A stretch of DNA of 64,000 nucleotides from Eutreptiella sp. 'Long Island Sound 2002'. Lineage: Eukaryota; Euglenozoa; Euglenophyceae; Eutreptiales; Eutreptiaceae. Each line of letters starts with the position of its first letter. The stretch's first letter is position 1. Location: positions 21,877,000 through 21,940,999 of the forward strand of contig OZ038384.1 in assembly GCA_964036045.1 (NCBI GenBank), read 5' to 3'. Under the pieces are notes generated by a model that saw only the letters and a program-made list of their open reading frames with translations, was not told where the DNA came from and did not search any database. The translations under genes and the position numbers were made by a program. Below are positions 239-61,140 of the stretch, in pieces.

Positions 239-271
239 CCCTTGGTGCGCGTTTGAAACCCAATGTTGTTC
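239..271 (+). repeat. E1 left terminal inverted repeat
   Basis: This 33-bp terminus matches the reverse complement of 7,051-7,083 with a single G/A difference. It is preceded by CT. Confidence 0.85.
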
Positions 272-560
272 TGGCCAAATTGTTCCAATGTTCTAGGCTA
301 TCTGGCCGGAACAAAAAAAGTTCAAAATTTATTTACCCCCCAACCAAGCCTACCCGTACCTGGTGGCAAAATATGTTGTTTGCTAGCCTTGGGGGTCCCC
401 GCTGGTATGCTCATATTTGTTGCCCGGCGCGTTGCCACGTGAAAAAAACTTGTTTTCAAAAACAGTTTTTGTTAGAACATCATTGGAACACCGCTAGAAC
501 AAGTTATTGGAACGTCGCCGGAACAAGCACTCTACCACAAGAGCAAAGCACAAGGAAGGG
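262..560. repeat. E1 left subterminal motif region
   Basis: Several GGAACA/GTTCC-type motifs follow the terminal repeat, including a cluster at about 475-530 with one full GGAACGTCGCCGGAAC. No coding potential is evident. The cluster mirrors the right subterminal region at about 6,970-7,060. Confidence 0.7.
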
Positions 561-630
561 TAAAAATGGTAACATACATTGTTGTGTAGGGTGCCCCCGG
601 GGGCCCATCGGGTCAGTCTCTTGTTCTCAC

Positions 631-1874
631 CTAAAAGGCCTGCGTGGTCGGGGGCCCGGCGGGCGCCCCCGAAGTCTTGTCACCCGCCCCACTATCCCCC
701 CCATCCCCCTCACCGACCACCACCCCTTCACCCTCCACCCCTTCACCAACCACCCCTTCACCCCTCACCCCTTCACCCTCCACCCCTTCTCCCACCACCC
801 CTTCACCCTCCACCCCTTCGACCTCCATCCTTTCCCCCTCCACCCCTTCCACCTCTTCCCCGACGCCCCCATCCCGGTTAGCCCCGGTAGCACCCAAACC
901 TGCCCCCGGTCCATCCCCTTCGTCTCCCCCGTCCCCGTCCCCGTCGTTGCTCTCGTCCCCCTCCTCATCCGCGTCTGCGTCGTCCTCCTTGTCCTCCTCC
1001 TCGGCCGCCATCATCTTGGCGAGGAACTTCTTCGCCTGCGTCTTGGTTTTCCAAACCGACGCTCTCGGGATGGCAAAGAGTTCGGGGTGTTTGGGGAAGG
1101 CGATCCACGTCTCCCCAACCCCGGGGGGGCCACCCGCGGCAAGGGCCTCTTTGCCCTGCTCGATCCCCCACTGCCCATTGTCCCGAAAAACTACATACAC
1201 TTGCTCCCCCGCTTTGTATTTGCACCCCCCCCCCTAGCCTTTGGCTTGGCCTTGGGTTGGGGTTGGGGGGGGTGGGCCTTGGGTTGGGGGGGCGCGGCTC
1301 TCTTGGGAGCCTTGCGAGGGGGTTTGGTGGGCTCCTTGGCTGGGGGGCGGGGCTGGGGCTCCTCGAACGCCGAGGAGTCGGTGGTGGACCCCGAGGAGGA
1401 GTCCGTTGAGGAGTCGCTGGACGACTCCTCGCTGGAGGACTCCCCCGGGAGCCTCTTCCTTTTTTGGGGGGCTGGTTTGGGGGCGCTCTTGGGTTCCCGC
1501 TTGGGGGGGCGTTGGGGTTTGGGTTTGGGTTTGGGTGCTGTTTGGGGGGCTGGGTGGGGGTTCGGGGGTTGGGGTTGCACGGGCGGTGCACACGCTGGCG
1601 GGGCGGGGGCCTCTGCGGCCACTTGTTGGCAGTGCGGCGGCGCGGGGGACATGTCGCCCATGCTGCCCCACCCCTCGATGCGCGTCGCGAGAACGCTGCC
1701 GCGGGGTGCCACGTAGTCCATCATGGCCGTGAGGAACTCGAGCACAGCGACGGGCTGCAAGTGCAATTGCTGAAGCAACGTACCCAAATAGATGGGACGG
1801 GGATCGCTTCCTGGCCAACGAAGGATCACCCGAACGGCGCGCGCGTCCGAAGGGTTGACCTGGATGTCCTCCAC
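631..1874 (-). pseudogene. E1 accessory protein, last exon(s): proline-rich, acidic, repeat tail
   Basis: The exon begins just after the AG acceptor at 1,875-1,876 and joins the upstream exon in phase 0. Its product starts with a short ordered segment (PRPIYLGTLLQQL..., MMDYVAPRGSV) and then a long Pro/Lys/Ser-rich, acidic linker. After a frame change at the poly-C tract near 1,220-1,237 it continues as YVVFRDNGQWGIE...ETWIAFP, a small possibly folded domain, and then a highly acidic tail. Between about 700 and 870 the tail is a tandem array of EGVxGEGV-type repeats built from 15-bp DNA units. I recognise no family. The frame change may be a real lesion or a homopolymer sequencing error. Confidence 0.45.
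700..870 (-). repeat. 15-bp coding minisatellite (EGV repeats)
   Basis: About a dozen CACCCCTTCACC-like units are arranged in tandem and encode Glu-Gly-Val repeats in the accessory protein tail. Confidence 0.8.
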
Positions 1875-2088
1875 CTACATGGAGGATAGCCAGGATGAGT
1901 GTTCCAGCGACGTTCCAATAAGCTGTTCCGGCAACGTTCAAAAGACTTTTCAAACGTTTTTTGGTGACAGATTGGAACGTCGCCAGAACAAACTGTTTGG
2001 AACGTCGCCGGAACAATGCACCGGCACGCCAACCATGTGCATTTTTGGGCCCTATTGGCCATGTGGACATGCTTGCGGGGGGGCATAC
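1875..2088 (-). other. E1 intron loaded with GGAACGTCGCCGGAAC motifs
   Basis: On the minus strand there is a GTATGC donor at 2,088 and a TTG...CATGTAG acceptor at 1,875. Both flanking exons are cut in phase 0 (888 nt from 2,976 to 2,089; the next codon starts at 1,874). Inside, the motif occurs on both strands (about 1,905-2,015), the same motif as at the ends of E1. Confidence 0.7.
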
Positions 2089-3532
2089 CCGCACGCGTGT
2101 GTCCACTTTCTCCTTGATCGCCGCCAACGCTTGCCGCAATTGCGAGGTCGGCGTGCGCTCACGTTCCGCTAGCACTGCCCGAACGGCAGATTGTTGGTGG
2201 CGCTGCGCGTCGTCCTCGCACTTGACGCGTAGGGCGCCAGGCCGCGACAGCGTTTGGCCAACGACGAAGCCATGGTATTTGCCTTCGTCCTCGACCACAT
2301 AGATGCCGTCGCGGAGGATTCGGGTCCAATTGGCCCGAAAGAGGACGGTGTCCTTGCGGGGAGTCGCCCTCACCTCGCCAAGGCCGTGGTCGGCCCAACG
2401 CTCAAAAATGAGGTGCCAATGGCAACTCCCCGCATTGTAAGAGCCCGCGGTTAGAAATTTGCCCCCCTGCGCCTTGCTGGGGAGCCAGTCGTTGGGGAGG
2501 GGTGCCGTGCGCCCTGTCCCCGGCCCGGTCACCCAGGACACCGGGACCCCCCCTGGCGCAGACCCCTCCTCCGGGCGCCAGCGGCAATCACGCTGCTCCT
2601 TGCAGTGCAGTTGCTTGTGCAGGAAGCGGTGCAGCAACCAACGGAGCGTGTAAATGGTGGGGTGGGGGGCTCGTAGGACACAGGCGTCAAGGGGGGGGGG
2701 GGGGTTGGGGCCTACCATCTCCCTTGTCCAGGGAAAATTGGCAGCTTTTGCTGCCAGGGATGAGCCAAGTCGGTTGCGCATCCAATCCGTAAAGCGCAAG
2801 ACGCCGCCGGCGTCATCCCCCTCCCCCTCCCCATCCCCATCCCCCTCCCCATCCCCATCCCCCTCCCCCCCCCCCCTCTTCTTCCTCTCTCTTAACCCCC
2901 GGGTTAGCCCTCCGCTCTTCATCCTTCTCATCCACCACCACCTCACCCAGCTCCACAATGTCATCGTCGTTGACACCCCCTTCCTGTTTCACCTGCACCT
3001 CCCCACCCATGCCCTGCAACTCCCTTTCAAGCACCTCCACCGCCTTCTGCGCCTCCCTTACCCGCCGGTTCCCCTCCAGAACCCTCTCGCCCGCGTGCCC
3101 CCCCCCCGTGATGTCCCCTGGCCGCCGGCACTCCGCCAATTTCGCAGACCATTTTTTCACCCGGCGGCGGAGGCTTTCAACATTGCCCTCCGCCTCTTGC
3201 AGCTCCCCCAGAACCACGGCGTGCTCCCGAACCCCCCCCCCGTTACGCATTGAACTCCCAGTCGAGGGCTCGGGGAACTGGGGGCGATGCGCTTGGAGAG
3301 GCGCGACTGGCGCGGCCCCTTGTGGGGCAGGCCGTGGCGCCTCCGATGGCCGGTGAGCGGGGGTTGCCCACGGAGGATGTTTGGGAGCGCCCTGAGGTGG
3401 GGGAGGGGCTGGCGAAGCCAGCGCAGACCTGCTGCGTGGCTCGGAGCGCGTGGCCCCCTGTGCCCCCAGTGGGGCTGGCGGGGGTGGTGCAGCCAGTGCT
3501 GCCCCCAGGGCCTCGGTCTCGGTCATCCCGTC
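2089..3532 (-). pseudogene. E1 accessory protein, coiled-coil and central exon
   Basis: Reading starts at the acceptor CTTGTCTGCAG (3,533) with ..DGMTETEALG. It runs through a Pro/Ala-rich segment into a predicted coiled coil (LGELQEAEGNVESLRRRVKK..., ERVLEGNRRVREAQKAVEVLERELQ), then an acidic stretch encoded by a G-rich (GGGGAT)n tract at 2,815-2,880. The frame moves by one there and continues as DDAGGVLRFTDWMRNRLG...WLLHRFLHKQLHCKEQRDCRW...YVVEDEGKYHGFVVGQ to the donor at 2,088. No enzyme family is recognised. A coiled-coil partner protein follows the transposase here and recurs in T, P, F1 and F2. The homopolymer tract makes the exact frame uncertain. Confidence 0.5.
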
Positions 3533-3601
3533 CTGCAGACAAGGATGCCGGAGAGAGGCCAACCCTACCCAGACACCTTGTTCCGGCGACGTTCCGACAA
3601 C

Positions 3602-3669
3602 CTGTTCCGGCGACGTTCTGGCGACGTTCCAGTGGCCGCTGGAACGTCGCCAGAACGTCGCCGGAACAG
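3602..3669. repeat. Perfect 31-bp inverted repeat with 6-nt loop
   Basis: The arms 3,602-3,632 and 3,639-3,669 are exact reverse complements and are made of the E1 motif (GTTCCGGCGACGTTC). They could form a hairpin in the intron RNA or a cruciform in DNA. Confidence 0.9.
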
Positions 3670-3772
3670 TTTGTTGGAACGTCGCCGGAACAGTGGAAAA
3701 TAGGCACAGCTCCGCGCGCGCACAGGGCGCACTGCGTGCGCTACGGCCCCGTGGGGGGGGGGAACATCCACT

Positions 3773-4252
3773 ACAAAGAATCCTAGCCCCTTTATGGGCA
3801 TGGGGCACGAACAATCACTAGGGGTTCTTGGGTTTTCCCCTTCCCCTGGACAACAAAGAGTCCTAGCCACTTTATGGGCATGGGGCACGAACAATCACTG
3901 GGGGTTCTTGGGTTTTCCCCTTCCCCTGGACAACAAAGAGTCCTAGCCCCTTTATGGGCATGGGGCACAAATAATCACTGGGGGTTCTTGGGTTTTGCCC
4001 TTCCCCTGGACAACAAAGATTCCTAGCCCCTTTATGGGCATGGGGCACAAATAATCACTTGGGGTTCTTGGGTTTTCCCCTTCCCCTGGACAACAAAGAT
4101 TCCTAGCCCCTTTATGGGCATGGGGCACAAATAATCACTGGGGGTTCTTGGGTTTTCCCCTTCCCCTGGACAACAAAGATTCCTAGCCCCTTTATGGGCA
4201 TGGGGCACGAATAATCACTGGCGGTTCTTGGGTTTTCCCCTTCCCCTTAACA
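3773..4252. repeat. 80-bp tandem repeat, six copies
   Basis: The unit begins near TCCTAGCCCCTTTATGGGCA and recurs at 3,781, 3,861, 3,941, 4,021, 4,101 and 4,181 with only scattered substitutions. This indicates recent expansion or homogenisation. It lies inside the E1 intron and no coding is supported. Confidence 0.95.
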
Positions 4253-4381
4253 ACAAATCATCAAATTCCTAAAGAGCAAAGAGCAAAAGGGACACAGGGG
4301 GGAGCGGGGGGAGCAGGGCAGGCAGGGACACACAAACCCAACGCACTGATTTCCACTGCGCGCAAAGCGCGCCAAAGCATA

Positions 4382-4572
4382 CACCCAAACCCAAACCCAA
4401 ACCTAGGCCCAAACCAAAACCCGCACCCGAACCCACACCCAACCCCGAGCCCAAACCCAAGCCCAAACCCACACCCAAGCCCAAACCCACACCCAGGCCC
4501 AAGCCCAAACCCACACCCAGCCCCAAGCCCAAACCCAAGCCCAAACCCCCACCCAAGCCCAAACCCGCAAAC
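4382..4572. repeat. CCCAAACCC/CCCACACCC low-complexity array
   Basis: About 190 bp of alternating CCCAAA, CCCACA and CCCAAG hexamers. It resembles telomere-type sequence but is degenerate and internal to the intron. The W/A/V-repeat peptides seen in one frame are an artefact of this repeat. Confidence 0.85.
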
Positions 4573-4644
4573 CTGCATATTCTTGGTGGCCTTCAGAAGC
4601 GCCAACATCATTTGCATCATATCGGCGCTGACGGGCGCGGCCAT
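4573..4644 (-). CDS. E1 accessory gene first exon (24 codons)
   Basis: An ATG at 4,644 opens [24 protein letters not shown]-type sequence (Met/Leu-rich helix) and ends exactly at a CAG|GTTTGC donor after 24 codons. E0 has a similar exon (MDA-AMQNMLADMF) at the same place. In both elements this ATG overlaps the end of the transposase frame in the +1 register. Confidence 0.5.
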
Positions 4645-5713
4645 GGATAGGAGCAGAAGAAAGAAGAGAGCTGAGGAACGGGGGTGGTGCAGAGGGGGTG
4701 GTCTCTAGTGCAGCCCTGGGAACACAAGGCACATGTCGAACAGCATCATGTTGGTGGAGATGAATGTGAAAGTACAAGAAAACCCATTGCAACACTTGCC
4801 GCAGGGCGTCGGCGTCCGAATCAATGGATGCCTGCGAGCGACCGCAGCTGGCGGTCCCAGTAGCCGTTTGCCGGCCACCGCCCCGGGCACTGTGTTCGTT
4901 GAAAGCCTGCTTCAGGAAGCGGTTAAGGCTTTCGACAATGTCATTGGAGAACATTGCCAATCTGAACGGCCAAATGTTGTCCAATACGCGATCCGCATCC
5001 TCCTCCAGGAACAGGAGGTAATGGGATGCGGACCTAGGAGCACAATGTTCCCGGAAGGCAGCTGCCGCTGCCCGGCATTGGGGACGCGTACCCACCTGAT
5101 AGGTGTGGTACAGGTCCTTCAAAAGCTTCGCCATCCCCATCACAGCCCTATAGAGGGGCTCCTCCGGCCCAACCGACAGCAACAATGCAACATCGGGCCA
5201 AGCCGCAAACAGGCGCGACGTCTCCTCACCATCCAGGGAACAATCCCTGCCTAGGCAGCACCCAGTGCGATGCTCATGCAATACCGCCTGAATCGCCGCA
5301 CGGGACACCTCATCGCCCCCGGCTAGCCGCTTTGCCGCCAACCGCTCAATGTTGGTCATTTGCAACCGGCCCATCGCCATGCAACAGTGCAAAATGCACA
5401 TGACAACGCGGCACCGGGCAATGACCACCACTGGTTCCACGGAACAACCTGCGGCCTTCAGCGATGGTGTTCCCAACAAGAAGGACGTCCGCTGTGCGTG
5501 GTCCGACTCGGTGGTCCGGACCACGTCTTTGCCCCGCCACACAGCGGCGTCGGAGTCCCAAATCCCCTCGTTGTATAGTGACCCCACTTGTGGGGCCGGT
5601 GTGATCCCGATAATGCGGCGCACCCAGGGGGAATCACCACCGAGCCAGGCATCGGCCGCTTCCTCATGGGAATTGAAGACCACCCGGTGGGTGTCCACGA
5701 CCTCCTGGATGGC
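4574..5713 (-). pseudogene. E1 transposase, exon 2 (C-terminal two thirds)
   Basis: The exon opens after TTTTTTTCTTAG at 5,714 as AIQEVVDTHRVV and is clearly homologous to the E0 exon at 9,197 (AIQDCEKFYWV). Landmarks shared with E0 are WVRRIIGITPAPQVGSLYNEG, LHCCMAMGRLQ and DIVESLNRFLKQAFNEHSARG. The last block has the ESLN..LK form typical of the helix carrying the third acidic residue in DDE transposases. The CWLC knuckle of T and P is not obvious here. The reading frame runs on past the accessory-gene ATG (4,644) and no stop separates them. Calling it a transposase is an inference from motif order and from its place in an element with inverted ends. Confidence 0.6.
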
Positions 5714-5851
5714 CTAAGAAAAAAACTTCAATTTTGTTGGAACCAGATTGTTCCGGTGGCGGTTCCAACGAAACACTTGAACGTCGCCGGAACGTCGCCG
5801 GAACAAGTTATCGGAACGTCGCCGGAACAACACGGTGTGTGCGCGGCACAC
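5714..5851 (-). other. E1 transposase intron with GGAACG motifs
   Basis: The donor AAG|GTGTGC (5,851) and acceptor TTTTTCTTAG| (5,714) give phase-0 joining on both sides. Four or more GTTCCGGCGACGTTCC-type units fill the 138-bp intron. E0 has an intron at the same codon with unrelated contents. Confidence 0.8.
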
Positions 5852-6577
5852 CTTAATATTGTCTTCCCAAAGGGTTGCTAGGGTCGCCATCGCTTTGTCC
5901 CCGCAGATTGCGAGGCCGATGACCCACACGCAGGCGGGAATTCGTCCCCAAAGGCCCATGTTGGCGATGGACACAGACAATTGGGACCACTCCCCGCCTG
6001 CGCAGGGGTAGCCGTCCCCCCTGACAATGAAAGTCAGGGGGAACGACCAATCGATTATGCGGCACAACGGGGGTTGGCTAGCAATGTAGCGCAGCCATGA
6101 TGCCCAGGGCCAACTGATGCCCGTGGCCTTGGGATCCGAAGTGCTCACCGCGGGGGCCAGCTCCTAGGGGGCCAGTAGATCTTGCCAGCGTTGCTGGAAA
6201 GCCCTCTCAGGGCAAATTGGACGGGCGAATGGAAGGCCCGTGGTCGCGGTGTACTTCAGCCCCCGGAGGGTGTACACTTCCGAGAGCGTGCGCCAAGCGG
6301 ATTTGGGCGCACGCAGGTTGAGGATGAGCTCGCAACACTCATCGGGGGGGAGCACCTCGGAGGCGTACTTGGCGATTGCCCCCTGCTGTATCTCGCGTAC
6401 ACAGCTTGGTTGGGCCAAGCGCACGGCCACCGCAAATTGGCGGCGGGCGTGTGGAGAGGAGATGGCCCATTCTGCTATGAGCTCCCCAACAAAATCCCCG
6501 TCCCGGAGGCTAACAGCACTAGCCAAATGGACGAGATGGGTGGTTAGTTGCGCAACGCGGGTTTGCGATCTAGGCAT
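5852..6577 (-). pseudogene. E1 transposase, exon 1, with in-frame TAG
   Basis: The likely start is ATG 6,577 (MPRSQTRVAQL), matching E0's MPFSRDTLTEL. The exon carries LRDGDFVGELIAEWA, a TTGLPFARPICPERAFQQRWQDLL block shared with E0, and GDKAMATL before the donor. An in-frame TAG at 6,164-6,166 interrupts it, where E0 reads through, so this copy looks inactive unless the stop is suppressed. Confidence 0.55.
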
Positions 6578-7083
6578 GATGAAGCTACAACAATGAACTA
6601 CGAAGCGAAATTTGGCAATGCATACCTCTAGGGGAAGATGCCCGTACACCCACCGAGCATTCAGGCAAGGAACAAATACCAAAATGGGACCCTAGGCATG
6701 GCCACAATGCACAAATCAAACGGGAGAATGGGGACGCCAACGTTGAAAAGTCATACAACGCTGCGTCTGAACTACAAGAAACAGCAGGCTTGCAAATGGA
6801 TACGAAAAGTTCGAAATGTGTACACCTAGTGGAAGGTGGCAAACGGCTCACAAGATGTCAACATGGCCCCGATGGGAAAGACAAGCCTTGATCGCGTTAT
6901 ACATGCAAGAAAGAGACAAAAAACATCATTTACGAACTTGGAAACTCATGGTGATGGATCTGGTTATCTGGCCTGCGACACTTGTTCCAGTGATGTTCCC
7001 AACGAGATTGTTCCGGCGGGAATTGTTCCCATTGGGAATATTCCAGTCGGGAACAACATTGGGTTTCAAACGCGTACCAAGGG
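6578..7083. repeat. E1 right end: subterminal motifs and terminal repeat
   Basis: There is no gene between the transposase start and the terminus. From about 6,970 the DNA is a series of TTCCGGCGGGAAT, TTCCCATTGGGAA and TTCCAGTCGGGAA units, and it ends in the 33-bp inverted repeat 7,051-7,083. Confidence 0.7.
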
Positions 7084-7857: not shown

Positions 7858-8090
7858 TATGAGAGAGAGAGAGAGGGAGAGAGAGAGAGAGAGAGAGAGA
7901 GTGAAAAAACAAAAAAAATTTGAATTTCTGAGCGCCCGAGTTAATTTCTTGAACTTATTATTTTCGATCGAAAATTTAATTAATATATTAAATATTAATG
8001 AACGCGACTATTAATATTAATCTCGAAAAATGAAGCAAGTCGCCGCAAATATTAATGGGAACACACAAGCAAGCGTGCACAAGCAAAACA
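7858..8090 (-). repeat. E0 intron: GA tract and TTAATATTAA motifs
   Basis: A (GAGA)n run at 7,860-7,902 is followed by AT-rich DNA with ATTAATATTAATCTCGA-type units at about 7,970-8,030. A donor-like CCCTG|GTGTGT occurs just upstream on the minus strand. Confidence 0.6.
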
Positions 8091-9197
8091 CACCAGGGCT
8101 GCATTGTTGGCTGTGAACATGTCGGCCAACATATTTTGCATTGCCTAGGCGTCCATGGCAAGGAGAAAAAAAAGCTGGCGGTGGGGGAGCAAGGGTGGAG
8201 GGCGGGGGGCTACGGGTGGCCGTGAGTTTGGCCATGGTGCATGGGGCGATATGGGGGGTCCCGTAGTTGCGCAACGGGAGGTCAAATTCTAAAAACCACC
8301 ACGCCCACACTTGTGAAACTACCTCCCCCTCCCGTTCGAGTTCGGTTGACCCCGGCATCCCCCCCCACCCCCGGCCCGAGTGGTCATTGTATGCGCGCTT
8401 AAGAATGGCGTTGAGGCTCTCAACGACATCCGCGCACACGGCACCCAACCCTACCCTCAAGCGGCGTGCCTTGGCCACGCCCTCGGTGACATCCTCCTCC
8501 AACTAGAGGAGGTAGTTTGATTGACATGCCTCCTTGCAACAATGTGCACGGTAGGCGCGCGCCACCTCGGCCGCACGTAGGTCCCCGCAGGAGGCTTGAC
8601 CGTGTACAACTCCCGGAGGAGGTCACGCATGGCCACGACGGCTGGCCATTCACCATCCTCCGGGAAGTAGTCCAACAACGGACCAAGTTCCTCCCACGCG
8701 AGGAACAACGCACGGGCCTCCCCCCCGTCGGGTGCCCCCGTCGCACCCGACTTCACACCCGTGCCGGCCCGGTAGAGGACCCGTTGCACGGTGACGGCGT
8801 TCTCCTTGGGGAGGTCCACAAGGCGTGTCTCGATGAACGCCACTTGGAGCCGGCCTATGGCCATGCAACAATGGAGGATGCATAGGAAAACCACGCACCG
8901 GTGATCCACAATGTGTGGATCCGCTATGCATCCCCCATTCTCCAAGCTACGGCCGGTCTCCTTGTAGCGGCGGCGGGCCGCCTCCTCACGCTCCAAGGTG
9001 CGCCGTGTCGCCATGTTGACCCGTGCCGCCGCAACCTTGTCCCACACCCCCATATTGTAAATTGAGCCCACCAAGGGCGAGGTGGACACACCGATAAGGC
9101 GCCGCACCAAAAGTTGATCTCCCCCGATGACCAATCGGCTTGGCACCCAGCGCGACACCCAATAAAACTTCTCGCAGTCTTGTATGGCCTGCAACAC
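8091..9197 (-). pseudogene. E0 transposase, exon 2
   Basis: It starts after CCTTTTTGTAG at 9,198 with VLQAIQDCEKFYWV. Conserved blocks shared with E1 are VRRLIGVSTSPLVGSIYNMGVWD, LCILHCCMAIGRLQ and DVVESLNAILKRAYNDHSGRG. The first two blocks and the ESLN block are in different frames (change near 8,460-8,500), so this copy is frameshifted. The ESLN..LK segment is the probable third-acidic-residue helix of a DDE transposase. Confidence 0.55.
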
Positions 9198-9347
9198 CTA
9201 CAAAAAGGACATGGATTAATATTTACATTAATTTCTCGAGATTAATATTAAGTTAATTTTTCACTTGGCGTTAATATTAACCTAAATCTAAATATCAATC
9301 TCGAGAAAATAACGCAAAAATTAACAAACAACGAATGGGCCACAAAC
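9198..9347 (-). other. E0 transposase intron with TTAATATTAATCTCGAG motifs
   Basis: The donor AAG|GTTTGT lies at 9,347 and the acceptor CCTTTTTGTAG| at 9,198. The position is equivalent to the E1 intron at 5,714-5,851, but the interior is AT-rich, with repeated TTAATATTAA and CTCGAGA. Confidence 0.75.
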
Positions 9348-10069
9348 CTTCAAGGTATCGGCCCATATCGTGCAAGTGCCACCATGTCCTTGTCCCCGCA
9401 CACGGCCATCCCTATCACCCACAAGTATGCGGGCGTGCGGCCCCGTGCGCTGTGGTTGAGGAGCCCAATGGAGAGTTGAGTTCAACTACCAGCGGCGCAC
9501 GGGTACGCATCCCCGCGCACTATAAAGGTGAGGGGCCGTGTCCGATCGATAGTGTCCACTAGCGATGGACGTGATGGGACGTACTAGGCCCATGACGGTA
9601 GCGGCCAAGAGCGCCCACTCGCCGGGGGATCGGGGATGGACACGGGCGGCCGTCGGTCAAGAGGGGTGACCAACTCCTTCCACGCGTCTGTGAACGCTTC
9701 CCGAGTGGGGATGGGCTTGGCGAACGGGAGGCCGGTTGGGGCCGTGCAGGCCGAACCCCAACGGCTCATATACACCATCATGTGGCGAAAGCCAACCATG
9801 GGGACGTTCAAGTCCATCAAGAGGCCGATGAGGTCCGGGGCCAAGAAGAGGAGGGAGGCATATTGCTTCACCCCCTCCTTTTGCTTGTCGCGAATAAGGG
9901 AGGGGTAGCCAACCTCCGTGGCCTCGGACCATCGGGCCCCGGCCAAGGGAGATAAAGCCAGCCACTCACCAAGGAGCCGGGAGACCAAATGGTCCCGCAA
10001 ACTCTTGGCCCCACTCGAACGCACGAGCCTCATGTTAAGCTCGGTAAGGGTGTCCCGAGAGAAAGGCAT
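9348..10069 (-). pseudogene. E0 transposase, exon 1
   Basis: The start is chosen at ATG 10,069 (MPFSRDTLTELNMRL) by comparison with E1. It carries LRDHLVSRLLGEWLALSP, TAPTGLPFAKPIPTREAFTDAWKELV and, near the end, VCGDKDMVALAR. A single-base loss just before the donor (ARY-GADTLK in the E1 register) breaks the frame. Function is inferred by homology to the E1 transposase. Confidence 0.5.
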
Positions 10070-13342: not shown

Positions 13343-13379
13343 GGCAATATGTGTGGCACAAAGGACGGGTGAAGTGTGT

Positions 13380-50105: not shown

Positions 50106-50292
50106 TTAGAGCACACAAAGATCAAATCGCAAAAAGTGCAAAACGGGCAATATCGAGCAAACGAAACATGGAAGGCACATTGTTGCATCATAGTGCACCC
50201 ATGTAACATGTGAAATTCCGGGTTCCAACCATATTAACAACACCCAAAATTGGGGGGGTTCCGCACCACGCCCTAGAACGCTGCATCCCATG

Positions 50293-50560: not shown

Positions 50561-50599
50561 CATAAAAGAGAAGCCCCGAAGAGTGAAGGAGGCAATTAC

Positions 50600-53321: not shown

Positions 53322-53357
53322 TGGGATGCAGCGTTCTAGGGCGTGGTGCGGAACCCC
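53322..53357 (+). repeat. T1 left terminal inverted repeat
   Basis: Exact complement of 60,372-60,407 over 36 bp. Confidence 0.95.
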
Positions 53358-53494
53358 CCCAATTTTGGGTGTTGTTAATATGGTTGGAACCCGGAATTTC
53401 ACATGTTACAAGGGTGCACTATGATGCAACAATGTGCCTTCCATGTATTGTTTGCTCGATATTGCCCGTTTTGCACTTTTTGCGATTTGATCTT

Positions 53495-53655
53495 TGTGTG
53501 CTCTAACTAGTTATCGCGGGGTTAGAACGGGGTTAGAGCACTAGTTATCGCGTGGGTTATCGCGCGATAACCTAGTTATCGCGGGGGTTATCGCGGGGGT
53601 TATCGCGCGATAACTAGTTATCGCGTGGGTTATCGCGTGGGTTATCGCGCTTCAT
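53495..53655. repeat. T1 leader/subterminal array
   Basis: Contains the 20-bp perfect palindrome CGCGATAACTAGTTATCGCG at 53,606-53,625 and several GGGTTATCGCG half units. It is followed by CCCCTTTTCGCTTTAG (53,680), an acceptor-like sequence, so the array may be a leader intron. Confidence 0.9.
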
Positions 53656-53707
53656 TTTATGTTTCCCCTTTTCGCTTTAGCTCTCAAAGCCTTCGTATTC
53701 TTTGATA

Positions 53708-55411
53708 ATGGCCCTTGCTGCTGCCCACGCTTGGTGCGAGCACCATCAAAAGCTCCTTGGGGTCCGTCGCCTTGGCGGTCCTGAGGGGTTTACGATGGGT
53801 GATGCCAATGTGAGGCGCCCTGTGGCGACCCGCTTTGAACATGGTGTGGACTTTGGACTCCTTGTCCATAAGTCCCCCTTCATGGCGGACGACCGAGACC
53901 CCCTGGTTCTCAGCAACTACATCTTCGAGTTGCTAGAGGTAAATCCAGGGGTTGCTGGATTTTTGATCCAGCTTCATCCGGACGATGTGGACGCGGTGGT
54001 GGAGTCCGTCACCGCCCATGCCGAGAAGGGTGCGGGGACGAAGACGACCCTCTATGTGGGTCAGGAGGAGGAGGAAGTGGAGGAAGTGGAGGAGGAGGAG
54101 GAGGATGCGGGGGGGGTGGGGGCTGGGGGGAGGAAGGAGAAGCCCCACAACCCCCTCATGATTAGTGTCCAGAAGGTAAGGATCCGACCGGGTAAGGGCA
54201 AGGGGCAGTCGGATGGTTGGTTCCCCCAACCCCTCACCCACAACACCCGCCGGGTCTGCACTGACGACCCCGAAAACAAGCTCCCCATGCACTCCCTTTG
54301 CCCCACAAGGGAGTGGGAGCGTGAGTGGTATGGGGTCACCACTCCCAACATTGTTTCGGGGCAGGGGGTGATTCTTTTTCCATTTGGGGCAACACCCCCC
54401 CTTATTGGGGAGGCGGAGGAGGTGGTTGCCGCCGAGCCCTTGGGGGCCTTTAATAGGGACCCCAATGACCTTGTGCTCACGGTGGGGGGGAAGCTGGTGG
54501 TCAACCACCTCCTGGAGCACGATTTTTTGAGTGCTGTGCAGCTCCAAAGTCTTTTGGATGATTTGGATAGGGTGCCTCTCTCAGAGAAGGCACCCATTTT
54601 CAATGAGAACCCCCCCATTGTCGGCAGGCCCCAAGATTCTGGGACCCGCCGTACATTGTACGGCAACTATGGGGGTGCCAACCACCACAGGCACAACCCC
54701 CACAAGCTCCATGATCTGCCAGTCCTCAAAAGGGTGGCAGATCGTGTGCTTGAGACGGCGAAGAAGACTGTGGTGGGGGGGGTTGGATGGAGCTGCACCA
54801 TCCTTGACATGGCCGAAATTTCGAGCTATGACCACACCCCCCAGCACCTCCATCGCGACGCCCCCCCCTACACCATTCCTGAAGGCACATTGATTGTCAA
54901 TTGCCTTATTATGCTAACCCATAATCATGAGGAGGAGGATGGGTCACATTTTCTTTTTGTGCCCTCCAGCAGTTCGGGGTTCCCTGACCCTTGGGTGGAG
55001 AGGGCTGTGCCATTCAAGAGGGGCACTGCCTTTTTTTTTAATGCCCTTGATGTCCACAGGGGGTCGGGGATTCCCAAGGCCTCCCCCACGGGGGTGTCCC
55101 ACCCCCGCCTCATGGCATTTTTTGCCATTGAGCTTACCGTGGGGGGGAATCTTCGATTCCCCAACCTGCACGTGACCCAGTCCATTAAGAGGCCCCAGCT
55201 GGGGGCACCTGGTGGCCGGGTGGCCAGGACAGTCCAGTGTGATGGGGCGGTTAGGTGTAGGGGGAAGGTGGTAGCCAATTGCTACGGATGCAATCGGCTG
55301 ATTTTGTGCACCGCCCACAAAGATGGCCTTTGTGTGCCATGCCAGGAGGGGGAGGAGGTGGAGGGGGGGGAGGAGGAGGAGGTGGTGGTATCCCAATGGG
55401 GTCAGCATTGA
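53708..55411 (+). CDS. T1 2OG-Fe(II) oxygenase with zinc-ribbon-like tail
   Basis: The start is ATG 53,708 just after the leader acceptor. The N-domain (residues 1-115; MALAAAHAWCEHHQKLLG...VAGFLIQLHPDDVDAVVES) is shared with P, F1 and F2. An acidic linker and KPHNPLMISVQKVRIRPGKGKG follow. The DSBH core has HLHRD (His 382, Asp 384), LIVNCLIMLTH...DGSHFLFVPSSS, DVHRG (His 450) and HPRLMAFFAIEL (Arg 467). This is the metal triad plus 2-oxoglutarate contact of PhyH/AlkB-type oxygenases. The tail CYGCNRLILCTAHKDGLCVPC suggests one zinc site. It probably oxidises a base, an mRNA or a protein to help the element, but the substrate is unknown. No break is visible; the frame ends in a TGA while domain X continues in the +1 frame. 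Confidence 0.7.
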   Translation: MALAAAHAWCEHHQKLLGVRRLGGPEGFTMGDANVRRPVATRFEHGVDFGLLVHKSPFMADDRDPLVLSNYIFELLEVNPGVAGFLIQLHPDDVDAVVESVTAHAEKGAGTKTTLYVGQEEEEVEEVEEEEEDAGGVGAGGRKEKPHNPLMISVQKVRIRPGKGKGQSDGWFPQPLTHNTRRVCTDDPENKLPMHSLCPTREWEREWYGVTTPNIVSGQGVILFPFGATPPLIGEAEEVVAAEPLGAFNRDPNDLVLTVGGKLVVNHLLEHDFLSAVQLQSLLDDLDRVPLSEKAPIFNENPPIVGRPQDSGTRRTLYGNYGGANHHRHNPHKLHDLPVLKRVADRVLETAKKTVVGGVGWSCTILDMAEISSYDHTPQHLHRDAPPYTIPEGTLIVNCLIMLTHNHEEEDGSHFLFVPSSSSGFPDPWVERAVPFKRGTAFFFNALDVHRGSGIPKASPTGVSHPRLMAFFAIELTVGGNLRFPNLHVTQSIKRPQLGAPGGRVARTVQCDGAVRCRGKVVANCYGCNRLILCTAHKDGLCVPCQEGEEVEGGEEEEVVVSQWGQH

Positions 55412-55829
55412 GCAATCTGCTCAGTGCTTGCTCCCGGTGGGAACAACCACAGGGCATTTTTTGTTGTCGGGGTGGGGGGTTGGGAGGGAGGTGATTGCCC
55501 CCCTCACTAATGAGGAGGCGGGGGCGGTCGCAGGCCACCCCGATCAGTGCCCCTTGGCCAAGGTGTGCCATGGGGAGGCACTGCCCTGGCCCACCCTGCA
55601 AGGGCATGTTGGGATGAAGGTGCCGGCGGGCACCATTTTGGTGGTGAGGAGGGGGTTGTATGGGGGAGTGGCAAGGGTGGCCCCTGAGGCGGAGGGGGTG
55701 GCCCAGGTGGTGGAGTGGCGGCAGGTGGGGGAGTATGCGGCCGTCACGGACTTCGTGTGGCTGCGGAGGCTGGGCCTGGTGCTGGACGACGCCAAGAAGG
55801 AGGGCCAAGGCATGTGTCCATGTCACCAG
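55391..55829 (+). CDS. T1 domain X
   Basis: Frame +1 to the oxygenase. GVSIEQSAQCLLPVGTTTGHFLL...GHPDQCPLAKVCHGEALPWPTLQGHVGMKVPAGTILVVRRGLYGGVARV, ending CPCHQ at the GTGTGA donor (55,830). Homologous domains exist in P and more weakly in F2a. The regular beta-strand/glycine pattern suggests a small beta-barrel, but no family is recognised. The frame overlaps the oxygenase end. How it is translated (frameshift, separate start at ATG 55,323, or unseen splice) is open. Confidence 0.6.
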
Positions 55830-56070
55830 GTGTGAAAAGCTCCCACAACACCCTGCTCTAACCCCTGCTCTAACTAGTTATCGCGCTAGGTTATCGCGTT
55901 CTAACTAGGTGCTCTAACTAGTTATCGCGCTAGGTTATCGCGTTCTAACTAGTTATCGCGGGGTTATCGCGGGGGGTTATCGCGGGGGTTATCGCGCGAT
56001 AACCTAGTTATCGCGGGGGTTATCGCGCGGGTTATCGCGTGTTTTTTTTTGTTTCTTTTGTTTTTTTCAG
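55830..56070 (+). other. T1 intron 1, filled with GATAAC/GTTAGAGC motifs
   Basis: The donor CAG|GTGTGA and acceptor GTTTCTTTTGTTTTTTTCAG| with a clear pyrimidine tract. Codon phase is 0 on both sides, giving CPCHQ|ATILQLPRIF with no stop. The interior has about ten GTTATCGCG/CGCGATAAC units and CTAGTTAGAGC-type units. Confidence 0.9.
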
Positions 56071-57276
56071 GCCACCATCTTGCAACTGCCCCGCATCTTC
56101 GTCAAGGACGACGCCCAGGCAGCCGACGCAGCGGGCGGAGCGGCAGCAGCAGCGGGGGCACGGCCCGCCAAGCCGGTGGCGGCCCGGTTGGAGCTGGAGG
56201 GGGAGAAGAGGCTGCCGGAGGGGGCGTCGTGGCGGTTTGGGGAGCCTGGGGATGAGGCCTGCAGGATGGGGGGGACGGGATGGTACCGGCAGGTCACCAT
56301 CACAGAGAAGGAGGGGGGGGTGGAGAGGAAGACCAACCTCACCCTCCCCTCCTATGTGTGGGTTGGGGGGGAAACGGCCAAGTGGCCGCAAGCCGCAGAG
56401 GGGGAAACGGTTGCGGCTTTTTTGTGTTTGTTTGGGATGAGCGACCCCCCCCAAAGGAAATCTTATTTCCTTTTGAGGGTGTGTTTTTTGTGGGAGGGGG
56501 AGTATACGGGGAGGGAAGTGTGGCAGAAGCTGCACAGGGGGGGGGACATCCACCAGGTTGGTGGGTATGACCCCCCCCCTTCTGTGGGGGACGCCACTGC
56601 CGAATGGATTCGGCAGTATGCACCCAAGGGGGGAAGGCCGGGAAAAGGCCAGACGAAGCGGGGACCAGACGTGGTGGTGGTTGAGCCGGATGCCCCCCCC
56701 CCCCTTAGGGGTAAGGGCCAAACCCCCGCCCCCAAGCCCTCCCCCAAGCCATCGAAGGTGGCAAAGGTGGCGGCAGCCCAGCCCCCCCATGAGGCCCTGG
56801 ACGTGGAGGCCTTGGGGGCCAGTGTGGCCACCCACGTGACGGACGCTTGCCAGGTTTTGGTGGAGCAGGCGGCCGCCACGGGGGTCGAGGCCGCACTGGC
56901 CAAGGGTCGGTCGGCCGACCACAGGTCGGCCTTGGCAAAGGCCGAAAAGGCCCAAGGCAACACCCAGCGTGCCCTGGACCAGGCCCTCAACCTGGCCGCC
57001 AAGAGGGGGGAGGAGGTGGAGGCGATGAGGGAGGCCCTGAGGGAGGCCCAGGAGGGGAGGCGGAAGGCGGAGGTGGAGGTGGCCCAGCTTAGGGTGGAGG
57101 TGGAGGGGCAGCGGAGGAGGGGGGATGACCTTGGGCAGCGCTTGGGGGTGGCTGAGGCGCAGGTGCGCAGCCTCACCTCCACCCTCTGTGCCTCCTTCGG
57201 GGCGCAGCAGGCCCAGCAGGGGCTGGCGCCGCAAGGGTTGCAGAGTCAGGGTAGTGGGAGTAGGAGTGGGAGCCAA
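56071..57276 (+). CDS. T1 coiled-coil accessory protein segment
   Basis: Starts ATILQLPRIFVKDD after the acceptor. A folded region (about residues 45-190) contains WYRQVTITEKEGG, NLTLPSYVWVGGETAKW, VAAFLCLFG, SYFLLRVCFLWEGEYTGREVWQKL. A Pro/Lys linker is followed by a long helical coiled coil (residues 270-370: ALDQALNLAAKRGEEVEAMREALREAQEGRRKAEVEVAQLRVEVEGQ...). The Gln/Gly/Ser tail ends at CAA followed by TGA. It is probably a multimerising partner of the transposase or of its RNA. The frame is continuous with X through intron 1 and with the next domain through the TGA. Confidence 0.65.
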
Positions 57277-57279
57277 TGA
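57277..57279 (+). other. In-frame TGA, CAA-TGA-CTA-G readthrough-type context
   Basis: Codons CAA (57,274), TGA (57,277), CTA (57,280), GTG (57,283). The frame stays open for 200 codons after it and encodes a conserved domain. UGA followed by CUAG is the best known leaky termination context in eukaryotes. Confidence 0.85.
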
Positions 57280-57882
57280 CTAGTGGATTTGCTCAGGGGG
57301 TTGCCCAAGGGCATTTTTCGTGGGGAGGAGCGATATGGGGCCCAAGTGGACATGTGCCACTTTGGCCTCGTGGGAAGTGGAAACCCTAACCCCTCTAATT
57401 TTAGGGCGACCCACATGGCCGCTGCTACCCTCAGGCCTGCCCTCACCCCCTTGGTAGCAGACCTCAATGGGTATTGCACCTCCAATGCTCCACCATGGTT
57501 CACATGGTGTAGCATCCAAATTGTTCGCCCCCAAGGGACGGACACCATGGGCCTCCACTCCCATTTGCGGGATGGGGCGCCCATGGCGCTTATTGTGTGT
57601 GTGGGGTCTTTCACGGGGGGTGAGTTTTGGGTGGAGAGTGGTGGCCTGCTGAATCCCTCCTTGAGGGAAAAAAAGCGGCACACCCGTGTGTGCAAGGGTA
57701 GGGCGGTGGAGGGTTGGGCATGCACCGCCACCCCCCAAGCCCCGGTGTTGTTCAACACCAGGGCACTACACGCTCCATTGTCATGGGAGGGCGAGCGATG
57801 GAGCGTGATTTTTTATAGTGCGGGGGGGGTTCTGCACTGCACGCCTGTGTGGCGGCAGCAGCTGCTGTCCATGGGTTTTAGG
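57280..57882 (+). CDS. T1 second DSBH (TET/JBP-like) oxygenase domain
   Basis: No ATG opens this frame; it follows the TGA as LVDLLRGLPKGIF. The domain pattern is WFTWCSIQIVRPQ, GLHSHLRDG (first His at 57,556), LIVCVGSFTGGEFWVESGG, a spacer, PVLFNTRALHAPL (distal His at 57,769) and GERWSVIFYS. This order of strands and the terminal GERysivfy match TET/JBP-type 2OG dioxygenases, which oxidise thymine or 5-methylcytosine in DNA. The usual HxD metal motif reads HSH, as in P (HRH). It ends MGFR at the intron-2 donor. Activity is uncertain. Confidence 0.55.
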
Positions 57883-58352
57883 GTCCTCTAACCCCTCCAG
57901 CTGATTCGATTATTGTTCACTATTTCTATTACTGTCTAGCCCGGAACATTTGAGAGGCACCCTATCCAAATCATCCAAAAGACTGTGTGACTGATTTGAA
58001 TTTGTGATTGTGGCGCCATGTACCCCGTGCCTGCACATTGTTGACATCTCCAAGGTTTCCTGGGTGCAAAATCAACGTTTGTGAAGGTTTTAGGGTGCCC
58101 AACGCTTGCTCTAACACCACCAGTTAGTGCGCACTAACCCCTGCTCTAACTAGTTATCGCGGGGGTTATCGCGCTCTAACTGGGTGCTCTAACTAGTTAT
58201 CGCGGGGGGTTATCGCGCTCTAACTAGTTATCGCGGGGGGTTATCGCGGGGGTTATCGCGCGATAACCTAGTTATCGCGGGGGTTATCGCGTGGGTTATC
58301 GCGTGTGTTTTTTGGGCCCTTGCTTCAAAACCCTCCCTCATTTCGCGCCCAG
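57883..58352 (+). other. T1 intron 2 with GATAAC array and 230-bp insertion
   Basis: The acceptor CATTTCGCGCCCAG| at 58,352 is followed by GTCCTCTTATTCTTCATG. Joined to ..GGTTTTAGG it gives MGFR|VLLFFMDN in phase 0. The donor in T1 reads GTCCTC, whereas T2 and T3 have GTGCCC. A second TTTTAGG|GTGCCC lies at 58,095 after an inserted segment. The motif array is at 58,135-58,305. Confidence 0.7.
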
Positions 58353-60026
58353 GTCCTCTTATTCTTCATGGACAATGCTGTCAATGAGGCCCTGCGGGCT
58401 CTCAACACAGCCAACCTGCGGCGGTACACCGATCTGCAGTGCCCCAAGGCCCGGCGGCGGCGTTTGAAGGCGGTTCAGCGGCTGGTGCGAGTTCTATTGG
58501 GTGACCCAGACGTTGTGTGTGGCACCAACACCAAAGGCGAAGTTTGTTTAAGTGGTGGGGCGTGCACTGCCCTGTCTGGCCCACTTGGCGGCCATCTTGC
58601 ATTAACAGCTCAGGAGCATGAGGCCCTGAGCATGCTACGCATGGCATGCAGCATGCATCTCTCCCAACGGGCCCTTTTGCGAATGCCCCGCCGTTGCACA
58701 CAACGGGACCTAAGGACCGTTCGGCAACGGATCATGCCCTACTTTCCCCAAACCACCATTGTAAAGTCTACCACAGGCCGCAATAGGGCAGCTGCCCATG
58801 TGCCTTTGCAATCAATTGTGCAAAATGCAATATCTATGGCCCGAGTTATTGGGAAACCCCCCCCTAGTGGCGTTGCCATTATTGTTATTTCAGTTGATGC
58901 GACTTCCTTGTGGAAGGCATCCTCCACCCGTGCGGATGTATGGGTTAATGTATGGGGGGGGGCAAAATATGCTTCGAAGGTGAAGCTATGGGCCTCATGG
59001 TTTTGCATGGATGGCGGGGATGAACAGGCTTTTTTGAGAAGCCTTGACATCTCCGCCAACCTCAACCAAGAGGTGAGGGATGTGGAAGAGGACGTTGTCC
59101 TCTTTCAAAACCAATTTTTGACTTGCACTGTCATTTTGACAGGGGATGGGAAGGGGATGCAAGCAATGGGGGGGGCTGGGTCTAAGTGTTGGTTGTGCAA
59201 AGACCCCAATGGGATTGTTGAGCAAATGGGGGTGGAGTCCACCTCAAGATGGGGGTCATTCTTGAGAAGTGTGACCCCTGATAGGCGGCCGGGGGACTAC
59301 CAACATGCAGCATGCCGCATCCTAAACGGCATTGCAAAGCGCATTGAGACCACCCTCCAGGCCCTCCCCCCTAGTACCCCTGGTAAGGCCCAAGCTCTTG
59401 CAGCTTTGCAGGCCTTCAAACAAGCCCTCAAGGATGAGACCGCAGGCATCCCTCTTAGGGAACGCCTCCCTTCGGCCTCGAGGGCCACAGAAAAAGATTT
59501 CGATCTAACCAGCACCAAAGTTTTCCTAACCTCCCCCCCCTTCCAAAGGCAATTTGTGGAATGCCTCAAAGAGCATGTCCCCACAGTGAGGACCCCTGGG
59601 GGACCTATGTTATGGGTTGTTGTGCATGTCATGGTGAAATGCATTGAGGGTTTGTATGAGCTTTGGAGGGTGAGGGAGTTGTACACTCTAACCCAAGTGG
59701 AACGCCACCGTGCGTTGACCACAAAATTTTCAAAAGCGTGGGGAGACTCAGGTTGGTCCCCCACCAGGTGGATCCATTGGTGCTTGGCACAATCCACCTT
59801 TTTTGCCGAGAAATGGAGGAACATTTTTCAGTTTTCCTCCATCCCAACGGAGTATCGGCATGGGCCTTACAAGAGGAGGCTCAAAAATTGTTTTAAGGGT
59901 TGGTCTTTGGTGAGGCCAAGTATGTCCCTCCGCCACATGCACCATTGCATGTCCATGAACGCCCTGGAGCAAGGGCTTTTGGGACTGGAGGCAGCCAAGG
60001 CCTCAGACATTGATGACTTTGTATGA
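58353..60026 (+). CDS. T1 DDE-type transposase
   Basis: The exon can continue the upstream frame or start at ATG 58,368 (552 residues). The N-part has a basic helical region (RRRRLKAVQRLVRVLL) and MLRMACSMHLSQRALLRM...DLRTVRQRIMPYF, probably DNA binding. Proposed catalytic residues are Asp 177 in SVDATSLWKASS, Asp 260 in LTGDGKGMQAMGGAGSKCWLCKD with an adjacent CWLC zinc knuckle, and Glu 495 in FSSIPTEYRHGPYKRRLKNCFKG. The D..DGK..G.GG..C.xC layout recalls RNase-H-fold transposases with an inserted zinc site. The C-terminus is WSLVRPSMSLRHMHHCMS. The frame is uninterrupted. The superfamily is not assigned. Confidence 0.7.
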   Translation, partial: VLLFFMDNAVNEALRALNTANLRRYTDLQCPKARRRRLKAVQRLVRVLLGDPDVVCGTNTKGEVCLSGGACTALSGPLGGHLALTAQEHEALSMLRMACSMHLSQRALLRMPRRCTQRDLRTVRQRIMPYFPQTTIVKSTTGRNRAAAHVPLQSIVQNAISMARVIGKPPPSGVAIIVISVDATSLWKASSTRADVWVNVWGGAKYASKVKLWASWFCMDGGDEQAFLRSLDISANLNQEVRDVEEDVVLFQNQFLTCTVILTGDGKGMQAMGGAGSKCWLCKDPNGIVEQMGVESTSRWGSFLRSVTPDRRPGDYQHAACRILNGIAKRIETTLQALPPSTPGKAQALAALQAFKQALKDETAGIPLRERLPSASRATEKDFDLTSTKVFLTSPPFQRQFVECLKEHVPTVRTPGGPMLWVVVHVMVKCIEGLYELWRVRELYTLTQVERHRALTTKFSKAWGDSGWSPTRWIHWCLAQSTFFAEKWRNIFQFSSIPTEYRHGPYKRRLKNCFKGWSLVRPSMSLRHMHHCMSMNALEQGLLGLEAAKASDIDDFV

Positions 60027-60084
60027 AAAACGACCACAGATGCTTTGTGCCAAGTGTTTTGTGTTGTTTGTCCTAGGGAGGGAG

Positions 60085-60215
60085 GGAGGAGGGGTGCGCG
60101 ATAACTACCCGCGATAACTGCGCGATAACTGAGTTATCGCGCGATAACTAGCGCGATAACTAGTTAGAGCAAGGTGCTCTAACTGCGTTCTAACTCTGTT
60201 CTAACTGTGCTCTAA
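60085..60215. repeat. T1 right subterminal motif array
   Basis: GCGCGATAACTACCCGCGATAACTGCGCGATAACTGAGTTATC units, then GTTCTAACTCTGTTC units. Confidence 0.9.
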
Positions 60216-60371
60216 CTCTTTGACCCCCCCCCCAAAAACCACCCCCATGATGCGGGTTATGTGGGGAAAGAAAGGGGATGGGGGGTTTTTGAGGGTGCTG
60301 AATCCATTTTTTTAGGTGGTTTGCCCCAAAATTGAGGGTAGGTGGGTGTTCCAGAAATTGCGTTCTAACTA

Positions 60372-60407
60372 GGGGTTCCGCACCACGCCCTAGAACGCTG
60401 CATCCCA
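60372..60407 (-). repeat. T1 right terminal inverted repeat
   Basis: Complement of 53,322-53,357. Confidence 0.95.
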
Positions 60408-60549
60408 AATGGGAAGGCGGGGGTTCTATAACATCATAGCACTGAATCTTGGCACCTATAACCAAGCCCTTGATGAAAGACATTGATGGACGCATCACAA
60501 TTGGAATGGCGAAGTCCACAAACAATATGATGGATGCCAATGGCAATGA

Positions 60550-60980
60550 TATACTCATGCGTGGCACAACTTCATGTAGTTGACACGAATGAAGACTTTA
60601 GTTGCCACCATGGAAAAACTCAGGCGCTCCCGATTAGCACATTGCCAGTCGGCTGAGCTAAACACTCGCTCCGTCGGGGCTTGGCTGGCTGGAAGACAAG
60701 CCACAACCTTGCCCAACGCAGATGCTGGAGAGGAAGCATGGAGGGCTTTTTGGGTTGTGTGGGTTTGGGTGGGGGGCAGGGCAGGGGGTTTGGGTTTCTC
60801 GGCGGCGGGGGGGGGGGGGTGCTTTGCTGGGGAGGTGCTGCGGGGGCTACCGGGGGTGGGGGGGCTCAACCCACAACTGCACAGCAGGATCTCCTCGTCA
60901 GCACACCCCTCCCACCCCAACTCCCCCATGTACTCCACTACGGTAAAGTGTCCCCAGGTGCTCAAGTTCTTGTTTTTCAT
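60550..60980 (-). pseudogene. hAT transposase dimerisation-domain fragment
   Basis: The minus-strand frame ends ASQAPTERVFSSADWQCANRERLSFSMVATKVFIRVNYMKL, the hallmark hAT C-terminal dimerisation motif (SERVFS.....N..R..L......LVFI). Upstream is a Pro-rich insert (poly-C at 60,820) after MKNKNLSTWGHFTVVEYMGE. The catalytic parts were not found, so this is a fragment or an exon. It stops before 60,408, where T1 is inserted; the PHD exon at 52,844 lies on the other side. Confidence 0.6.
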
Positions 60981-60999
60981 GTTGTCTATAAAAAAAGAA

Positions 61000-61140
61000 G
61001 GAACGGCAAATTTTCATTGAAATTTTCGTTTGAAAGATAAACTTAAATTTCGTCGAAAATTTCGTTGAAAATTACCTTGAAAATTTCGCTTGTAAATTTC
61101 GTTCGAATCCGACCTCCTCCTCCTCCTCCTCCCTTTCCAC
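61000..61140. repeat. AAATTTCGT motif stretch
   Basis: GAAATTTTCGTTTGAAA, AATTTCGTCGAAAATTTCG and TTGAAAATT units. This is the same motif as at 53,185-53,321. Confidence 0.6.

Follow-up and report, generated by a model that had tools for sequence, protein, structure and literature searches.

Private motif arrays near the ends and inside the transposon lineages of a Eutreptiella genome window

The window analysed here, meaning the whole 64,000-nucleotide stretch of Eutreptiella sp. 'Long Island Sound 2002' under study (G000:C7:21877000-21940999, within a 2.28 Gb assembly), holds copies of several DNA transposon lineages, which we name T, P, E1, E0, F1 and F2, together with a region G. A sequence-only reading of this DNA had claimed that at least seven lineages each own a separate short motif, placed both near the ends of the element and inside it. 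We find the pattern to be strong and largely real: T, P, E1, E0, F1 and F2 all have arrays near their ends and inside, and the interior intervals match the terminus of their own lineage in every case tested. The claim of seven such lineages fails for G, where the arrays stand at the ends only.

The T element is represented by copy B (53322-60407, plus strand), bounded by the terminal repeats TGGGATGCAGCGTTCTAGG with a 2-bp target duplication recognised by eye. Its motif arrays, all in noncoding DNA, lie at the 5' end (53497-53650), in intron 1 (55830-56070), in the spacer that separates gene 1 from the transposase gene (58130-58303) and at the 3' end (60095-60215). The first three share one orientation and the last is inverted, with seven forward motifs and one reverse at the 3' end. 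Exon 1 of gene 1, which is 2-oxoglutarate (2OG)-oxygenase-like, runs from the first ATG at 53708 to 55829, and is frameshifted in copy B and open in the intact copy L055. The intron 1 borders read CAG/GTGTGA and TTTTTTTCAG/GCC, phase 0 in L055, where the intron measures 242 nt, and exon 2 (56071-57888) encodes a heptad stretch, an in-frame TGA (57277-57279) and a second oxygenase-like domain, assigned by eye, before its stop. Gene 2 (58368-60026) is a transposase candidate of 552 aa. Copy A (43190-50290, minus strand) has arrays at the same four places, and copy C (26371-37297, minus strand, limits approximate) is internally deleted and split by the P element.

A genome search with the T transposase gave 79 matches scored at 99-100% identity, of 7612 first-look candidates, and, with one of the 30 best-scoring copies as reference, this set shows 0-4 differences over the 1656 bases of the transposase frame; T is thus a young element. 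Within these 30 best-matching copies the 3' array keeps six half-motifs in all 30 and the spacer array keeps 11 in 26, while the spacer is 31 bp shorter in one copy and 15 bp shorter in another. Furthermore, an 87-bp block of the copy A spacer array recurs at 98% identity in the intron array of copy B. Because of this block and the two length differences, whole-block copying, rather than motif-by-motif mutation, would fit the spread of the arrays. Separately, T block 1 is fused to the transposase frame in the proteins P0001, P0007 and P0012 and in a T remnant in L057, an arrangement that internally deleted T copies would be expected to show.

The P element (28234-36124, minus strand) has terminal repeats TATGGTGAGCATAACC and, by eye, a 2-bp duplication. 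It is a sister of T, the transposases being 31% identical, and its genome search gave 96 matches scored at 87-100% identity, of 5758 candidates. The P arrays occupy 35815-35925, 33040-33250, 30675-30775 and 28430-28515, the second of them within intron 1 (32996-33547). The transposase gene has, in addition, a small intron without the motif (30380-30464, GTATGT...TTAG). A small element, with terminal repeats CTGTACCCTTCGTGAACCGG and a repeated motif of its own, GCGTGAATTT, both recognised by eye, is nested in P at 31783-32260.

F1 and F2 are sisters, and distant relatives of T and P. F1 (11237-16990, minus strand) has the terminal sequence TGTAACTACGAAG at 11237, its 5' limit not being fixed, with arrays at 11490-11640, 13395-13590 and 15540-15740, the last inside intron 1 (15503-15748; VCNCQHE/AHLPF, phase 0). 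On its 5' side lies a degenerate cluster (16780-16950) of GCTGGAACCCC, which by eye does not match the F1 motif, some units resembling it. F2 is present as a truncated copy (17160-21790, minus strand; arrays 17165-17290, 19285-19510 and 21575-21785), and a second F2-type copy (41068-51000, minus strand) carries TGTAACTACGAAG at both ends and is split by T copy A. When the genome was searched with the F2 transposase, a tight group at 47% identity emerged, one member of which we call Q (L056 and L057). Q is absent from the window. Its private palindrome, TTGGCGCGCGCCAA, forms three clusters, one in intron 1, one in the spacer that precedes the transposase gene and one at the 3' end, the 5' end not having been located. 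The motif recurs in a second Q copy (L065) at both of the places which that copy covers, and this lineage from outside the window behaves like those within it.

The apparent ends of F1, F2 and Q all bear the 13-bp TGTAACTACGAAG, exactly or with one mismatch (both ends in one F2-type copy, one end each in F1 and Q), yet the three have different motif arrays; judged from these ends, the terminal sequence appears to be kept while the arrays turn over. F2-type words persist in closer relatives of F2, whose reported identity is 60-71%. L059 has them both in its spacer and at its 3' end; in L060 and L061, where other elements have replaced the 3' end, they survive in the spacer only, and in L063 and L064 they flank the transposase frame on both sides. 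L058 was considered as an F2 relative with a new motif and rejected, the motif belonging to a separate nested element, S, at whose two ends it lies. S spans L061 and L058 (about 441-3710 of the joined stretch) and recurs in L060 from about 2440; besides transposase-like frames of its own it has a private AGCGCTCACTGAGC array, confined to the neighbourhood of its two ends. Contigs of about 1.5-2 kb carry P0179, P0180 and P0184, which are related to the Q transposase; the P0180 lineage was not found in the genome search (best 46%) and may come from another organism. Beside the arrays of the F2 spacer (19510-19640) and of P intron 1 (33250-33400), and also in L059 and L060, there is a tRNA-promoter-like stretch, GTTCAAACCCC, and ARAGORN and Rfam reported nothing in the window.

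E1 (239-7083, minus strand), with a terminal repeat CCTTGGTGCGCGTTTGAAACCCAATGTTG recognised by eye, has five array clusters, of which one near 6984 is weak. Two lie in the phase-0 introns A (5714-5851) and B (1875-2088) and one, inverted, in an interval that is either spacer or intron (3535-3750). Its sister by sequence comparison is E0 (7890-10360, minus strand, the limits giving the extent of the arrays and not of the element), with arrays at 7890-8075, 9196-9350 and 10260-10360. The donor and acceptor of the 9196-9350 interval align by eye with those of E1 intron A, with different motifs between them. The G region (21880-25700, unstranded, limits approximate) has CGGATAAATCCC arrays at its two ends, 21935-22071 and 25487-25655. 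An open frame of 825 aa (61525-63999, minus strand) runs off the end of the window and has no Pfam match at E ≤ 1.

A census of motif matches in the window against five dinucleotide shuffles gave 21 matches against 0 for T, 16 against 0 for P, 14 against 0 for F1, 16 against 0-2 for E1 and 29 against 0-3 for F2, a single match lying outside the arrays for each of the last two (16850 and 32031). The motifs of E0 (5 against 0-3) and G (11 against 2-7) are weak as counts, yet clustered. The clusters recur along each element, at 53.5, 55.9, 58.2 and 60.15 kb in T, at 28.5, 30.7, 33.1 and 35.9 kb in P, at 0.5, 1.9, 3.6, 5.8 and 7.0 kb in E1 (the last being one weak match), at 11.5, 13.4 and 15.6 kb in F1 and at 17.2, 19.3 and 21.6 kb in F2. 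A motif that the sequence-only reading had offered for a possible hAT region, AAAATTTTCG, proved unconvincing, with 17 scattered matches against 3-12 in the shuffles. In the whole genome there are 610 + 593 exact copies of the E1 16-mer and 2 + 1 of its reversed control; among the first 100 listed sites, all on contig C1, 73 fall in groups of two to four clusters and 27 in single-cluster groups, and several grouped sites repeat the spacing seen in the window, about 1.5 / 1.6 / 2.1 kb. The motifs are therefore not general minisatellites, the total of 1203 sites standing against 3 for the reversed control and the T and Q half-motifs being wholly missing from coding sequence. The intact T copy L055 has 39 half-motifs and none in 5624 coding bases, and none of the 40 in Q is in coding sequence, by counts that used approximate coding limits.

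Comparison of introns with the ends of their own and of other elements, which the sequence-only reading had proposed as its check, was carried out with shared 8-mers on 25 noncoding intervals from seven lineages (T, P, Q, E1, E0, F1 and F2; 10 of them terminal, the other 15 interior). The comparison did not extend to G, the hAT region or S, for which no interior intervals were defined. For every one of the 15 interior intervals, the greatest sharing of 8-mers was with a terminus of its own lineage, given interval limits that were chosen with the cluster positions known, an E0 'terminus' that is a guess and a T intron 1 that is a base short at its 3' side. The mean number of shared 8-mers per 100 bp is 16.6 within lineages (34 pairs, none zero) and 0.97 between them (266 pairs; maximum 5.6, between the F1 and F2 spacers), and 0 of 20000 permutations of the lineage labels reach the within-lineage sharing seen. 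Coding pieces of 250 bp served as a control and matched their own lineage in 15 of 96 cases, chance being about 13.7, a figure that ties make rough. Lineage specificity is confined to noncoding DNA. The observed/expected CpG ratio, taken with the same approximate coding limits, is 1.3-1.8 in arrays and 0.45-0.79 in coding sequence in six of six lineages measured, with 0.69 for the window; depletion of this kind in coding DNA is what methylated transposons would show.

The intervals that the sequence-only reading called introns are intron-like in part. GT-AG borders together with a phase-0 join that stays open are seen in five array-bearing intervals (T, Q, F1, E1 A and E1 B); the T join gives 1323 codons, open but for the in-frame TGA. 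The interval before the transposase gene in T and P is most simply read as intergenic, since a stop codon precedes it. In T (MCPCHQ), P (WCICNQ), Q (ICSCSEK) and F1 (VCNCQHE) the intron 1 join follows a CxC motif, and this common protein position holds a different motif array in each. Intron 1 is therefore probably a single ancestral intron, older than the motif differences. For P, phase 0 was pieced together from P0034, in which exon 1 runs WCICNQ into the donor, and from exon 2 of L054, and not from one copy. Nor is the motif inside every recognised intron, as had been stated: introns of 85-86 nt in the P transposase gene and 79 nt in the Q transposase gene have good borders and no motif. 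For the motif comparison the former was taken as 30364-30448, which misses 16 bases of 30380-30464. Its join, over the part tested, has one stop in the window copy and none in another P copy (in L056). P0178 and P0180 continue across the site of the small Q intron. The database proteins appear to be open-frame calls and not spliced models.

The encoded proteins offer few familiar features. T exon 1 matches PhyH weakly (E 0.0076, 17 bits against a Pfam cut-off of 22; 0.011 in L055), and an HRD...H pattern can be seen by eye in T exon 1 and in P0034. On such grounds, a motif and a weak Pfam match, T and P are the only elements in which oxygenase-like domains are recognised; in E1, F1, F2 and Q neither Pfam scans nor reading by eye revealed any, and the T and P domains have no match to Pfam Tet_JBP (PF12851). 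The T transposase has no Pfam family at E ≤ 1, scans of the P, F, E and Q blocks found no transposase family (Pfam models only), and nothing informative came from the Pfam, PDB-sequence, Rfam and tRNA searches. By a shuffle test, the second protein has significant heptad periodicity in T, P and E1. Between the heptad protein and the second oxygenase-like domain, T and P alike have a single in-frame TGA (context CAA-TGA-CTN), at 57277-57279 (T) and 31395-31397 (P, minus strand) in the window, at 4738-4740 in L054 and at 4108-4110 in L055. T and P are about 30% identical around it, and P0059 has a sense residue at its position; stop readthrough or a very small intron are possible explanations.

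Our literature searches found private anti-silencing codes described from the VANDALs of Arabidopsis, which are MULEs, and nothing closer. The sequence-only reading had thought the sharing of motifs between ends and introns undescribed, a novelty that it does not possess: passages of Hosaka et al. 2017 (PMC5735166) place VANC21 at the introns, intergenic regions and terminal noncoding regions of VANDAL21, give its binding motif as nine bases and state that VANC6 targets carry different motifs, and a passage of Sasaki et al. 2023 (PMC10398659) repeats the VANC21 and VANC6 motif findings. According to those passages, VANDAL families have private short motifs in introns, spacers and termini, related families differ, and repeats are gained and lost among copies. 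The same layout is seen here, with a private motif in (predicted) introns, spacers and termini and none in coding sequence, and with different motifs in the related lineages T/P, E1/E0 and F1/F2/Q, those of F1 and F2 being similar. Unlike in VANDALs, there is no match to a MULE-type transposase (Pfam models only), the T and P target duplications are 2 bp by eye, the motifs contain CpG and are for the most part palindromes, two of the lineages (T and P) have oxygenase-like domains, a single genome has at least seven lineages, and the reader protein is only a candidate. By analogy, the elements may work like the VANDAL/VANC system; relatedness is not claimed.

Individual features are shared with other transposon families. 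The account of soybean CACTA/En-Spm elements (Tgmt*) in the part of PMC2613891 that concerns them likewise has a conserved terminal inverted repeat, subterminal arrays that diverge between lineages and a protein that binds the motif, with arrays described at the ends, whereas here they also lie in introns and spacers. There is no CACTA core or 3-bp duplication here, the ends being TGGGATGCAGCG in T, TATGGTGAGC in P and TGTAACTACGAAG in F1, F2 and Q. A distant relation to KDZ (Zisupton) elements is possible, against which T and P have 2-bp duplications by eye instead of 8-bp ones, and no KDZ transposase is recognised by Pfam. The portion of Kojima 2025 (PMC12730594) that treats fungal DNA transposons with TET/JBP dioxygenase genes proposes that these genes help in escaping methylation-based silencing, and the word 'subterminal' has 0 occurrences in the main text of that paper. 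Those transposons resemble T and P in joining a DNA transposon to a dioxygenase (here oxygenase-like domains), and differ in that Pfam Tet_JBP does not recognise the T and P domains.

We propose, with moderate confidence, that the arrays are lineage-specific docking sites for a protein that the element itself encodes, probably with an anti-silencing role. Of the roles first offered for the motifs, docking and silencing escape would still be the best. Private, mostly palindromic, CpG-containing arrays occupy the long noncoding stretches, namely the leader, large introns, spacers between genes and trailer. In this model a DNA-binding protein of the element, acting as a dimer, would read the arrays of its own lineage about every 2 kb. 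The reader would keep the noncoding DNA unmethylated or open, which would permit expression and transposition, and in T and P it could also bring the element-encoded oxygenase-like domains to the arrays. A change of reader would bring a joint replacement of the arrays of that lineage, through block duplication or conversion, under an unaltered terminal sequence. Oxygenase docking as a general function, one of the roles first suggested, is unlikely because the oxygenase-like domains are recognised in T and P only, yet E1, F1, F2 and Q have arrays too.

Other explanations account for parts of the pattern. The arrays could be classic subterminal sites at which the transposase or an accessory factor assembles the transposition complex, the interior copies being by-products or decoys unrelated to silencing. 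We consider this an unlikely but serious alternative, since arrays do lie near the ends, the 3' array of T is inverted, and the soybean CACTA subterminal repeats, as far as the relevant part of PMC2613891 describes them, diverge under conserved terminal repeats much as in F1, F2 and Q. It leaves unexplained, however, why the lineage's own motif fills long interior gaps, including intron 1 of T, P, Q and F1, and why 26 of 30 T copies have a full spacer array, a point weakened by their youth, which has left little time for loss. We think it improbable that the arrays are promoter or enhancer modules, each set ahead of a coding block. The 5', intron and spacer arrays of T are indeed co-oriented and just upstream of a coding block, which docking would also allow, but the 3' array comes after the last gene, and the intron 1 array is inside a gene, with no nearby start codon in the exon that follows.

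The same 87-bp block, and the two shortened spacers among the 30 T copies, would also be produced by neutral concerted evolution, in which functionless end repeats spread into introns by duplication and gene conversion. Such a process does not account for palindromes that contain CpG or for complete replacement at several places across lineages, and we give it little credence. Least probable of all, to the point of being hardly credible, is that the motifs act as RNA hairpins that define introns or feed small RNAs. The motifs are palindromic and E1 has inverted blocks, which speaks for it, but the same arrays stand near ends and between genes, where the intron definition first suggested for them explains nothing, and the two introns of 79-86 nt do without arrays.

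Several observations weigh against the docking model or its oxygenase branch. The reader is at present a guess, the candidate being the second, partly heptad-repeat protein, and the heptad periodicity of that protein is not significant in Q, F2 and F1 by the shuffle test. Motif privacy is incomplete between F1 and F2, with 3 of 14 F1 matches in F2 arrays and 6 of 29 F2 matches in F1 arrays, and the CpG excess of the arrays is partly the composition of the motifs themselves. With respect to the introns, the phase-0 join of P intron 1 in the window copy contains two stops, one of them a TAG at the last exon codon, and is open in phase 2, and the Q join is open in phase 1 as well as 0. The structure model of the second oxygenase-like domain is unusable (mean predicted local distance difference test score, pLDDT, 40.8). 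Finally, Tet_JBP is matched at one place in the assembly, on a small contig (G000:C2034:19243-19665; one of nine candidates scored), which is neither T nor P and appears to be either a host gene or a contaminant.

What differs here is the presence side by side of several lineages without a recognised VANDAL relation, the CpG palindromes, the common introns with different motifs, the common terminal sequence under different arrays and the oxygenase-like genes of two lineages. We tentatively raise the further possibility, doubtful as it stands, that this transposon community evolved element-wide self-recognition independently of VANDALs, in which private CpG palindromes are paired with an element's own reader, the T/P reader brings an oxygenase that erases methylation, and lineages split by a change of code. 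If active on DNA, the oxygenase-like domains of T and P would supply the erasing enzyme. The graded lineages, the near-identical copies and the common intron position and terminal sequence mean that joint change of binding protein and motif could be followed in this genome. If the same layout has arisen in elements without a recognised relation to VANDALs, the struggle of DNA transposons against silencing may generally lead to private motif codes.

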